Below are positions 41,797 to 45,149 of a stretch of 64,000 nucleotides of DNA, one piece after another; within the stretch, counting starts at the first letter, position 1, and each line of letters starts with the position of its first letter. The position numbers were made by a program, and so were the translations under genes. Below the pieces are notes generated by a model. The model did no database searches, was not told the DNA's origin, and worked only from the letters and a program-made list of their open reading frames with translations. Source of the DNA: Candidatus Dormiibacter spiritus (lineage in GTDB: Bacteria; Chloroflexota; Dormibacteria; Dormibacterales; Dormibacteraceae); contig QHBT01000069.1 of assembly GCA_003244185.1 (NCBI GenBank), positions 1 to 64,000 on the forward strand. The letters are read 5' to 3'.

Positions 41797-41813
41797 GATT
41801 CAGCAGTTTGCTG

Positions 41814-41963
41814 CACCTCGTTAGGCGAGGCAACCACACGGAAAAAAGGCACCTGATCTAAAACGTCGAGGGACGCGCCAGATCAGGCCAGGTGCTCCGG
41901 CCAAGGGGGGCCGGGCTGACGAATCTAAGCCGTGCGGCGCCAAGAGCTAAAACGAGTGGGGTG
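41814..41963 (+). ncRNA. M-box (ykoK) Mg2+ riboswitch
   Basis: The aptamer core matches the M-box consensus: CTCGTTAGGCGAGGC, an ACGGAAAAAAGGC segment, AAAACGTCGAGGGACGC, and a 3' part with GAGCTAAAACGAG. P1 is closed by CTCGTT (41818 on) with AACGAG, extended by CACC/GGTG. M-boxes sense Mg2+ and shut off Mg transport genes. The downstream NRAMP-type transporter and MgtE-like protein fit. No T-run terminator is seen. A GGCGGC-CTC-GCCGCC stem follows at 41969-41983. Confidence 0.9.
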
Positions 41964-41968
41964 CATAC

Positions 41969-41983
41969 GGCGGCCTCGCCGCC
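41969..41983 (+). other. GC hairpin just after the M-box
   Basis: GGCGGC-CTC-GCCGCC is a perfect 6-bp stem 5 bases after P1. With no U-tract it may be a pause or Rho-linked element of the expression platform. Confidence 0.4.
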
Positions 41984-42024
41984 CTGAGCCTGCCCAAGGC
42001 GCCATCCCGCTCGGAGGTTCAGCA

Positions 42025-42117
42025 ATGAGGGGCGTTGACAGGAGGCGTATGAGTCCCGACCAACGGAACTTGAAAGACGTCCCTGTGCCCCGTCTGGGAA
42101 GCGCTCGCAGCAGCTAG
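42025..42117 (+). CDS. 30-residue leader peptide between riboswitch and transporter
   Basis: A short ORF starts at ATG 42025, with CGGAGG 7 bases upstream, and encodes MRGVDRRRMSPDQRN followed by a Pro/Asp-containing half (LKDVPVPRLG). A second in-frame ATG at 42049 follows an AGGAGG. It ends 60 bases before the transporter gene. Leader peptides in Mg2+ transporter leaders (MgtL in enterics) sense proline and Mg-dependent translation. A similar role is an inference. TGCCCCG inside the ORF (42087-42093) can pair with CGGGGCA further down. Confidence 0.5.
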   Translation: MRGVDRRRMSPDQRNLKDVPVPRLGSARSS

Positions 42118-42177
42118 CTCATCTCCGGTCGGAGTGCGGGGCAGAGGAAAACGCACTCAACCAAAAGGAGGTGTTAG

Positions 42178-43845
42178 ATGAGCAACCAGCGCGGATCTTC
42201 GGTCGAGCCCCGCGGCGGCATTGATCCGATAAGTACTTCGCGGGCCGTCCTGGATCCGGCTCACGTCGGCGACATCACAGGTGCGCTGGGGACTATCAGG
42301 CTCGGTTCAGGGCCGCCTCGCTCGCTGCGCCAGCGATTGCTCGTCCTCCTGGCGGTCATCGGTCCCGGCATCATAGTCATGGTCGGTGACAACGACGCCG
42401 GGGGGGTCGCCACCTACGCTCAGGCCGGCCAAAACTACGGCACCAGCCTTTTGTGGGAGCTGCTGCTGCTGATCCCGGTCCTGATTGTGAACCAGGAGAT
42501 GGTGGTGCGGCTGGGCGCCGTGACCGGAATGGGTCACGGCAAGATGATTTTTGAGCGCTTCGGCAGGTGGTGGGGGATTTTCGCAGTCGGAGATCTCTTT
42601 CTGCTCAACTTTCTGACCCTGGTAACCGAGTTCATAGGTGTCAGCCTGGCACTGGAGCACTTCGGCCTGAGCCCTTATATATCGGTTCCACTCGCCGGCC
42701 TGGCGCTCATCGTCGTGACCGCATCCGGCAGCTTCCGCAGGTGGGAGCGAGTGCTCTTCGTCTTCGTCGCTGCCAATTTCCTGGTGATCCCGCTGGTAGT
42801 GATCAGCCACCCGCAGATCGGTCCGGTCCTGCACGACTTCGTGGTGCCGGGGATTCAGGGCGGACTGACCGGCGACTCCGTCCTGCTGGTGATCGCCATT
42901 GTCGGCACGACGGTGGCCCCCTGGCAGCTGTTCTTCCAGCAGTCGAACATTGTCGACAAGCGCATCACACCGCGCTGGATCTCCTACGAGCGGGCGGACA
43001 CAGTCCTGGGCTCAGTCATCACGGTCATCGGTGCGGCAGCGCTCGTCGTGACTTGCGCGGCAGCGTTCGGGGGCTCAGGTGACTTCGGCCACTTCACTGA
43101 CGCCGGTCAGACCGGGCACAGTCTCAGCCGGGTCTTGGGCAAACCCGCGGGCGCAATGTTTGCCATTGTGCTCCTCAACGCGTCACTGATCGGTGCGTCG
43201 GCTGTGGCGCTGGCCACCTCCTACGCCGCCGGGGATACCTTCGGCGTGCGACACTCGCTGCACTGGAATTTTCGAGAGGCGCGGGGCTTCTACGCCAGCT
43301 TCGCGGCTCTTGTCGTTGGCGCCGCCGCCATCGTGCTGATACCCCACGCGCCGCTCGGGCTGATCACCACGGCTGTACAGGCCCTGGCCGGGCTTCTCTT
43401 GCCGAGCGCCAGCGTTTTTCTGCTCCTCCTCTGCAACGACCGGGCCGTGCTCGGGCCGTGGGTGAACCCGGCCTGGCTGAACGCGATCGCGGCGGTCATC
43501 ATCACAGTGCTGCTGACGCTGTCTGGGATCCTGACTGTGACCACGCTGTTCCCCGGGGTTGACGTCAAGAGCCTGGCCGAGGTGATGGCGGCACTGGTGC
43601 TGGCTGCATTGCTCAGCCTCGGCGCCTTCCTGGCGGTGAGGGGCAGAGGACCCAGGACTGACCGGACCGCAGCTCGGCGTCAGAGGCAGCAGGGCTGGAC
43701 CATGCCGCCCCTGGCGCTGCTGGATCGGCCGACCTGGTCGCCGATGCGGCGGTTCGGCATGTCCGCTCTGCGTGCGTACCTGGTCATCGCCGCGCTGTTG
43801 TTGGTGGTGAAAAGCATCCAGCTGGCGGCTGGCGCTCATAGTTAG
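42178..43845 (+). CDS. NRAMP-family divalent metal transporter, NRMT (Mg2+)-like
   Basis: A 555-residue protein with about 11 helices. TM1 has the metal-binding segment MVGDNDAGGVATY (residues 68-80) where classical NRAMPs have DPGN. TM6 reads GTTVAPWQ (A247) where classical proteins have the Mn/Fe-selecting Met in AxxMPHN. Loss of this Met is the hallmark of NRAMP-related magnesium transporters. Control by the M-box supports Mg2+ import. AAAAGGAGG precedes the ATG. Confidence 0.88.
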   Translation: MSNQRGSSVEPRGGIDPISTSRAVLDPAHVGDITGALGTIRLGSGPPRSLRQRLLVLLAVIGPGIIVMVGDNDAGGVATYAQAGQNYGTSLLWELLLLIPVLIVNQEMVVRLGAVTGMGHGKMIFERFGRWWGIFAVGDLFLLNFLTLVTEFIGVSLALEHFGLSPYISVPLAGLALIVVTASGSFRRWERVLFVFVAANFLVIPLVVISHPQIGPVLHDFVVPGIQGGLTGDSVLLVIAIVGTTVAPWQLFFQQSNIVDKRITPRWISYERADTVLGSVITVIGAAALVVTCAAAFGGSGDFGHFTDAGQTGHSLSRVLGKPAGAMFAIVLLNASLIGASAVALATSYAAGDTFGVRHSLHWNFREARGFYASFAALVVGAAAIVLIPHAPLGLITTAVQALAGLLLPSASVFLLLLCNDRAVLGPWVNPAWLNAIAAVIITVLLTLSGILTVTTLFPGVDVKSLAEVMAALVLAALLSLGAFLAVRGRGPRTDRTAARRQRQQGWTMPPLALLDRPTWSPMRRFGMSALRAYLVIAALLLVVKSIQLAAGAHS

Positions 43846-43874: not shown

Positions 43875-45149
43875 TTGGCCCGGCTGCACTTCTCGAAGCT
43901 GAACGATCAGCCCCTGCTGACCGCGTCAGGGAGCGAGGTGGGCAAGATTGTCGACGGTGTGGTGAAGCTGGTCGATGGCGGCCTGCCCACGGTTACTGGC
44001 GTGCTCGTCCACCGGGACGGCAAGGACGTCTTCGTTTCCGCGCGGGATCTGAGCGAGCTCTCCGCCAACGGCTGCAGGCTGCGCACCGAGAGCGTCGACA
44101 GCCGTCCCTTCGAACGGCGGCCCGGAGAAGTCCTGCTGGAGGGCGATGTCCAGGGTCACTCGGTCATCGATGTCGATGCGGCTCGCCTGGTGCGGGTCAA
44201 GGACCTTGTGCTGGAAGGTGAGCAGGGTTCCTGGCGGGTGGTCGGCATAGTGCCCTCACCTCCCTCCCGACTCCTGGCCGCGTTCGGGCTGGGCAGGGTC
44301 CAGCAGAGCGAGATCGACTGGGCACGCGTGGAGCCGCTGGTGAGTCACGTGCCGTCGGCTCAGGTGGGCCCCTCCTCCCGCCTGGCCAAACTCAGGCCGG
44401 CTGATATCGCTGACATCGTGGAAGAGGCCTCGCATGATGAGGGCGAGGAGATCCTGGACGCGGTCCAGCACGACCACGAGCTCGAAGCTGACGTTTTCGA
44501 GGAGCTGGACGAGGAGCATCAGCTGGAGTTCATCAAGGGCCGGAGCCGGGAGGAGGTGGCAACCATCCTCGCCAACATGGACCCCGACGCCGCGACCGAC
44601 ATGCTGATGGAGCTGGACCAGGAGCAGCGCCGACCTGTGCTCGAGCTGCTGCCTCCCGAGCAGCAGGCCAAGGTTCGCAAGCTGCTCGGCTACAACCCGG
44701 AAACCGCGGGCGGCCTGATGAGCAACGAATTCATTGCTCTGCCCTCTGCACTGACGGTGGAGCAAAGCATCCGCCGGCTCCGTGAGTTGGAGGACGTGCC
44801 CGCCACCCTGACCACGCTCTACACCCTGGTCGACGGTCGTTTGTCAGGAGCTGTTGGTCTGGCGGAGCTGCTCTGCGCTGAAGTGTCAGCGACTCTTCTC
44901 GATCTCTCTCCCTCCGACCCGATTGCCGTCTACGCCGATGCCGACCTGCCCTCGGTGGCTGTCCAGATGGCCGACTACAACCTGTCTTCACTGCCGGTGG
45001 TCGATGAGCAGGGCGGCATCCTAGGTGTGGTCAGCTATGACGACCTCCTCGAGGCCATGCTGCCGGAGGAATGGCGCTGGCGCGGCCGGCCCGAACAGGC
45101 GCGCAGGTATCAGCCGCCGAAACCCGCCGAAAACGACGTCCAGGTCTGA
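43875..45149 (+). CDS. Soluble MgtE-like regulatory protein (PRC barrel, MgtE_N, CBS pair)
   Basis: A 424-residue protein. The N-terminal 130 residues look like PRC-barrel segments (FSKLNDQPLLTASGSEVGKI). An MgtE N superhelical domain follows (LRPADIADIVEEA, ILANMDPDAATDML, GYNPETAGGLMSNEF), then a CBS pair (SLPVVDEQGGILGVVSYDD). The MgtE membrane domain is absent. The start is TTG 43875 with a strong AGGAGG 9 bases upstream. It probably senses Mg2+ and controls the adjacent NRAMP-type transporter. Confidence 0.88.
   Translation: MARLHFSKLNDQPLLTASGSEVGKIVDGVVKLVDGGLPTVTGVLVHRDGKDVFVSARDLSELSANGCRLRTESVDSRPFERRPGEVLLEGDVQGHSVIDVDAARLVRVKDLVLEGEQGSWRVVGIVPSPPSRLLAAFGLGRVQQSEIDWARVEPLVSHVPSAQVGPSSRLAKLRPADIADIVEEASHDEGEEILDAVQHDHELEADVFEELDEEHQLEFIKGRSREEVATILANMDPDAATDMLMELDQEQRRPVLELLPPEQQAKVRKLLGYNPETAGGLMSNEFIALPSALTVEQSIRRLRELEDVPATLTTLYTLVDGRLSGAVGLAELLCAEVSATLLDLSPSDPIAVYADADLPSVAVQMADYNLSSLPVVDEQGGILGVVSYDDLLEAMLPEEWRWRGRPEQARRYQPPKPAENDVQV

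Follow-up and report, generated by a model that had tools for sequence, protein, structure and literature searches.

The M-box (ykoK) Mg2+ riboswitch aptamer in the 64,000-nucleotide stretch of DNA analyzed here (the window) lies on the forward strand at positions 41810–41967. Its match to the Rfam covariance model RF00380 scored 77.7 bits, against a gathering threshold of 44, and covered model positions 1–169 of 169, indicating a full-length, somewhat diverged aptamer, and it was the only M-box found in its genome. We assign the aptamer based on this model match and infer that it acts as a switch. A leader of 210 nt separates it from a gene (42178–43845, forward strand) for an Nramp-family transporter (PF01566, E 1.3e-79), a probable, putative Mg2+ transporter of the NrmT type as judged from its sequence. 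Shin et al. (2014, PMC4072509) reported NrmT under M-box control mostly in Clostridia and Deltaproteobacteria. The window is similar to that system in having an M-box 5' of an Nramp-related gene, and differs in having a leader ORF, as the text of PMC4072509 makes no mention of one. Adjoining the Nramp gene, and probably in one operon with it, is a gene (43875–45149, forward strand) for an MgtE-like protein with PRC-barrel (PF05239), MgtE_N (PF03448) and CBS (PF00571) domains and without the MgtE membrane domain PF01769. No tRNA-like elements were found in the window.

Between the aptamer and the transporter gene is a 30-codon leader ORF (uORF; MRGVDRRRMSPDQRNLKDVPVPRLGSARSS, 42025–42117, forward strand) with the ribosome site GGAGG (42013–42017) seven bases 5' of its first ATG. 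The same frame can be read from a second in-frame ATG at 42049 (MSPDQRNLKDVPVPRLGSARSS, 42049–42117, forward strand), which follows AGGAGG (42040–42045) at a short spacing of 3 nt. A sequence-only reading of this DNA had pointed out the ORF with its good ribosome site, the second start and the placement between M-box and transporter, and all of these were borne out; when the leader was dinucleotide-shuffled 1000 times, a closed ORF of at least 20 codons preceded by GGAGG arose only 21 times. That reading had also drawn attention to Pro and Asp codons in the second half of the ORF, which are present but do not belong to its conserved part, namely the N-terminus with an SPxQ core at the second start.

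The window uORF was compared with a family of leader peptides, described below, that we identified behind M-boxes in other genomes. Scored against the family profile with the 64-kb window as background, the second start reached 1.2 bits and the first start −7.7 bits, and the second start ranked third of the 126 SD-preceded starts in the window. Its score is nonetheless below the tenth percentile of the family (3.2 bits; median 11.9). The order M-box, uORF, Nramp gene is common to the window and its same-class relatives L003 and L004, both of which have clear family uORFs at the corresponding place. The SD of the window uORF (CTCGGAGG) is identical to that of the L004 uORF, the residues SPDQ align in frame with SPHQ of L004 and L013, and the first four codons from the second start are those of a mycobacterial uORF (L199). 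Based on these sequence comparisons, the second start, beginning MSPD, appears to suit the family better than the first. Whichever start is used, the N-terminus (MSPDQ or MRGVD) contains one acidic residue; the mgtL/mgtQ type is characterized by a pair of acidic residues (adjacent or one apart) close to the start, and no such pair was found in the window uORF.

A DNA search with the window uORF against 110 genomes of the class identified a similar leader only in G001, a genome of the same genus. The sequence-only reading had named conservation of start and frame, and coding bias in the substitutions, as the test of its idea. G001 retains both uORF starts, the frame and the stop, but all four changes in the uORF are nonsynonymous and none is synonymous, numbers too few to decide on selection. 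In the transporter gene of the same pair, pS was 0.235 and pN was 0.011; given that pS, the probability of zero synonymous changes in some 22 uORF sites is about 0.003. Conservation of the leader outside the ORF equals that inside it. Because synonymous changes were absent from the uORF and frequent in the gene, the constraint on this pair of leaders looks like constraint at the RNA level, with no peptide-level constraint visible.

These comparisons bear directly on the possibility that the window ORF is a by-product of a conserved expression platform, in which RNA structure is selected and translation is incidental. The substitution pattern, the even conservation inside and outside the ORF and the weak family profile score all favor this explanation. 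Against it are the retention of the ribosome site, both starts, the frame and the stop, the occurrence of such a leader ORF in only 2% of shuffles, the in-frame SPxQ core, and the clear family members at that place in L003 and L004, which have the same gene order. We consider this explanation somewhat unlikely.

The predicted folding of the window leader offers a route by which the aptamer could influence the uORF. The 3' strand of the aptamer stem P1 (ACGAGTGGGGTGC, 41952–41964), a candidate anti-sequestering strand, may pair with a platform strand (GCGCCATCCCGCTCG, 41999–42013) whose 3' end is at the uORF ribosome site (dG −21.0, p 0.025 vs shuffles). The platform strand has the same sequence in G001. 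Similar helices built from different sequences were found in L003 (p 0.01) and L212 (p 0.035), and in about half of the leaders tested the helix was not significant. A candidate anti-SD (CTGAGCCT, 41984–41991) is complementary to AGGTTCAG (42015–42022), across the uORF ribosome site, and the two form an 8-bp pairing when the leader is folded computationally with the aptamer left out; in G001 one of these eight pairs is missing. For the uORF SD, modelled openness increased from 0.49 to just 0.65 in the window and was unchanged in G001. Fold-based switching is clear in L003 and L004, weak in the window and absent in G001.

Further downstream, the stretch directly 3' of the uORF stop (CTCATCTCC, 42118–42126), one base of which differs in G001, can pair with the ribosome site and start of the transporter gene in the predicted fold. 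Modelled openness of the gene SD was 0.40 with no ribosome present and 0.52 when a ribosome occupied the uORF stop, and this effect is so small that we retain the opening of the transporter ribosome site by uORF translation only as an idea. A hairpin (GAGTGCG...CGCACTC, 42132–42158) without a U-tract is located 5' of the gene ribosome site and is retained in G001. The 7-bp pairing that the sequence-only reading had proposed between TGCCCCG (42086–42092) and CGGGGCA (42137–42143) did not hold up, being equalled by 266 of 1000 shuffles and having two of its seven pairs broken in G001. Neither an intrinsic terminator nor an antiterminator was found in the window leader; a second intrinsic terminator with a competing hairpin at the uORF end, as in the Chloroflexia-type attenuator described below, is likewise absent from it. 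Since it lacks an intrinsic terminator, the output of the window M-box is probably translational.

Taken with the shared gene order, SD and SPxQ core, these results suggest that the window uORF is a diverged member of the leader-peptide family. We regard its membership as likely rather than proven, because its profile score is below the tenth percentile, the change in SD openness is small and peptide-level constraint was not seen in the comparison with G001.

The family itself was identified by comparing 162 M-box leaders (132 and a further 30) from the class of the window, its phylum, two further classes, the mycobacterial order, the phylum holding that order, and the Alicyclobacillus order. 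The phylum labels used here were inferred for Chloroflexota, follow from shared mycobacterial genomes for Actinomycetota, and follow from named Alicyclobacillus records for Bacillota. Most aptamers are followed by a short ORF that has its own SD and shares its N-terminal residues with the others, and such ORFs were found in all three phyla: 96 uORFs in the first 132 leaders, with the 30 Bacillota leaders adding 20 more and at least six forms with TTG starts. The N-termini include MDAGPSSS, MDDGSHRSQ, MDEGGH and MDDDSH in Chloroflexota; MDGDGS, MDDDGSPHQ and MEPGSS in the class of the window; MSPGDSP, MSSSDSP and MISGDSP in mycobacteria; MESDPGSR and MPEDGE in other Actinomycetota; and MDAGPSHQ, MDIGPS and MDSDPGSRR in Alicyclobacillales. 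The beginnings MDAGPS, MDDGSH, MSPGDSP and MESDPG are mutually alike. Presence of a uORF varied with the distance of the gene from the aptamer, with a uORF in 76 of 91 leaders when this exceeded 200 nt and in none of 10 when it was below 100 nt. The downstream genes tested encode Nramp, MgtE, MgtC, P-type cation ATPase and ABC permease proteins.

The family set was partly chosen by eye and includes a few uORFs with CTG, ATA and ATT starts. A selection made on the ribosome site alone, blind to the peptide, yielded 41 distinct N-termini that agree with the set chosen by eye. Asp or Glu made up 28% of residues 2–5 in this peptide-blind set, versus 4% at residues 10–20, 9% in downstream genes and 1–4% in other frames. 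An acidic residue occurs at positions 2–6 in 89 of 92 distinct N-termini, and 39 have at least two within positions 2–7. Two acidic residues are adjacent or one apart in 38 of the 92, and the remaining 54 have no such close pair. In the larger groups, pN/pS at codons 2–10 was 0.31 (13 sequences), 0.39 (9), 0.30 (9) and 0.08 (3), versus 0.75–1.56 at the later codons of those four groups. Several groups did not have a pN/pS below 1 at codons 2–10, among them the Roseiflexus type (1.32), in which there were few synonymous changes to count. Together, these sequence comparisons indicate that a leader-peptide family exists with a constrained N-terminus, and that codons 2–10, and not the later codons, are under protein-level selection in the larger groups.

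The codons chosen for the early serines are also unusual. In codons 2–9 of the uORFs of about 107 distinct leaders (e.g., L098, L106, L199, L224), AGT encodes 114 of 171 serines (67%), versus 93 of 1364 (7%) in the downstream genes; in the Bacillota uORFs it encodes 29 of 39 early serines. Plain selection on the peptide leaves this preference unexplained. One explanation for it is that what is conserved at the start is a nucleotide or codon signal, recognized by an RNA-binding factor, by Rho or through tRNA-specific pausing, rather than a nascent chain read in the ribosome tunnel, and that the peptide is secondary. Serine-codon-specific translation is known in B. subtilis (PMC3862929), which lends this explanation some support. 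Against it, the spacing between the start and AGT changes in whole-codon steps, with AGT kept in frame, and the other codons vary synonymously, with pN/pS about 0.3 in the larger groups. On balance, we judge such a codon element unlikely as the basis of the conservation.

Several uORFs have unusual presumed starts behind their ribosome sites: CTG (L013, L197, L212), ATA (L157, L160), ATT (L204) and TTG (L223, L227, L229, L240, L244, L247), suggesting that weak initiation has been selected. An overlapping frame ending in YGRWP and a stop, noticed by eye at the start of some Chloroflexota uORFs, was inconsistent in other lineages and was set aside. In mycobacterial leaders L041, L087 and L200–L205, a second small SD-started ORF of 45–85 codons lies 3' of the uORF, about 215–300 nt after the aptamer, and has a conserved TPQERANL(Y/Q) motif in several of them. 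Two near-identical tandem M-boxes (L167 and L176) are on one contig, 616 nt apart.

In Chloroflexota and Bacillota the uORF is commonly flanked by terminators. Among 53 leaders from these phyla, 50 have an intrinsic terminator 5' of the uORF (7.3 in shuffles) and 34 have one 3' of it (9.3 in shuffles). In the Chloroflexus/Roseiflexus class this second terminator usually begins some 15–36 nt after the uORF stop. Within the Roseiflexus/Chloroflexus group, pairing joins the final uORF codons and the stop to the second terminator (its 5' flank and 5' arm), forming an antiterminator of 19 bp in which 97.7% of cells are paired and six pairs show compensatory changes, with both partners altered. No shuffle among 500 did as well, and slid versions of the pairing were far worse. 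As the terminator needs this 5' arm for its own stem, the two structures are mutually exclusive. Beyond this clade, most leaders with a second terminator had no significant pairing in tests of the uORF-end duplex, and the Fisher-combined p over all second terminators was given no weight, the sequences being related. The alignment thus supports the antiterminator for one clade only, Roseiflexus/Chloroflexus.

Two other leader structures were noted by eye. In L245 the uORF is missing 3' of the first terminator, and the sequence there (GTGCGCCCGGCATGGGCG...) looks like the 5' end of a group II intron that has inserted into the leader. In the L223/L229/L240 group of Alicyclobacillales, the stretch holding the uORF ribosome site (GGTGGTAGG) has a complement in a CCTACTACACC-like sequence just 5' of the gene ribosome site, and the pairing would enclose the entire uORF.

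The family is also found without an M-box. A search of 251 Chloroflexota genomes with a pattern for MDAGPS starts identified 21 sites, versus seven for a reversed control. Eight of the 21 are M-box leaders already known and one (L253) looks like a chance match inside a gene. The other 12 (L254, L263–L273; mostly one family) have a strong SD and no M-box, no Rfam matches were obtained in these loci, and 200–850 nt downstream of each is a PRC/MgtE_N-like (MgtE-type) gene, two of which were checked with Pfam and the others by likeness of translation. In three of these loci that are close relatives of one another (L267, L268, L271), the uORF end is complementary to an arm of a downstream hairpin (p 0.005–0.01). 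An extended −10-like sequence (TGCTATACT) is located roughly 100–160 nt 5' of the uORF in these M-box-free loci.

The closest known counterpart is the mycobacterial uORF2, or Rv1805A, which is carried with an M-box by the pe20 and rv1535 leaders. Reporters showed that uORF2 is expressed under M-box control with the involvement of Rho, a translational platform was proposed for the pe20 M-box, and the peptide was called mycobacteria-specific (D'Halluin et al. 2026, PMC12810186). As in the family described here, an M-box is followed, before the operon, by a short ORF with its own SD and conserved N-terminal residues, and the mycobacterial uORFs in our set fit the uORF2 description in having Pro at position 7, as in MSPGDSP. 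Also alike are the lack of an intrinsic terminator, as in the window, alternative pairing that involves the P1 end and an anti-SD, and the existence of an M-box-free homologue (Rv0115A). However, the family extends to Chloroflexota, other Actinomycetota and Bacillota, and its members in Chloroflexota and Bacillota have intrinsic terminators. A further difference is that the uORF2 peptide was proposed to act on the transporter. If this applied to the family, the peptide would be a trans-acting small subunit or regulator of the transporter, the role that PMC12810186 suggests for Rv1805A, and conservation of the N-terminus over three phyla favors that role. Yet only about ten N-terminal residues are conserved while the later codons drift near neutrality, the downstream transporters are of different types, the uORF end is used as RNA, and serine codon identity matters beyond the residue. 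We consider action in trans very improbable.

A functional parallel is provided by leader ORFs in which early acidic residues impair or abort translation and so raise expression of Mg2+ transporters, namely Salmonella mgtQ (PMC8092293) and E. coli mgtL (PMC11282234). These are also short uORFs 5' of Mg2+ transporter genes with early Asp or Glu (Asp2/Glu5 in mgtQ, EPDP in mgtL), and their RNA competes with an inhibitory structure. They differ in lacking an M-box, and in that mgtL works via Rho and mgtQ on a ribosome site, whereas the Chloroflexota form works on an intrinsic terminator; many family members also have a single acidic residue. The likeness to the enteric mgtA leader drawn by the sequence-only reading is one of analogy, with no homology claimed. 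The Chloroflexia form is also similar to trp-type transcription attenuation in that completion of a leader ORF decides between two exclusive hairpins. Unlike trp-type leaders, this form has no run of regulatory amino-acid codons, the presumed signal being Mg2+ on the ribosome, and it is preceded by a riboswitch and another terminator.

Based on these observations, we propose that control occurs in two stages. In the first, the M-box, via competition for the P1 3' strand, would set whether the uORF ribosome site is open, with an output that is probably at the level of translation and may also involve Rho, like that of the mycobacterial pe20 M-box. The second stage would be the family uORF, located behind M-boxes in three phyla or M-box-free before MgtE-type genes, in which only the first ten or so codons are kept as peptide and the 3' end serves as RNA. 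In the better-preserved members the uORF 3' end forms the antiterminator that competes with the second terminator. A ribosome completing the uORF would destroy the antiterminator and turn the gene off; at low Mg2+, loss or stalling of the ribosome at the early acidic codons would spare it and turn the gene on. By analogy with mgtL and mgtQ, destabilization of the ribosome at these codons is perhaps the Mg2+ signal, a suggestion we do not regard as established because many members (e.g., MDAGPS and MSPGDSP) have a single acidic residue.

We therefore favor, with reasonable though far from full confidence, the explanation that an ancient cis-acting leader peptide gives Mg2+-transporter genes a second, ribosome-based control and that the window copy is a diverged member. 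The dual control by riboswitch and leader peptide that the sequence-only reading suggested is right in outline, as the architecture recurs with a conserved N-terminal peptide in three phyla, although the case is weaker for the window and the specific supports offered, the pairing and the second-half codons, fail. The idea points to something larger than that reading had seen. More tentatively, and with slightly less than even confidence, we speculate that one ancient element (M-[D/E/S]-x-[G/D]-[P/D]-S-, with the serine from AGU) is a second, ribosome-made Mg2+ sensor that operates with or without an M-box, serves several transporter classes in at least three phyla, and has been plugged into terminators, ribosome sites or Rho according to lineage. 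If this is correct, many M-boxes would be the first half of a tandem device, the second half of which is a translated peptide able to stand alone. Mycobacterial Rv1805A would be re-read as a leader acting in cis and not as a protein specific to one genus, counterparts of mgtL and mgtQ would exist outside the enterics, and it would become directly testable whether ribosomes act as Mg2+ sensors across bacteria.
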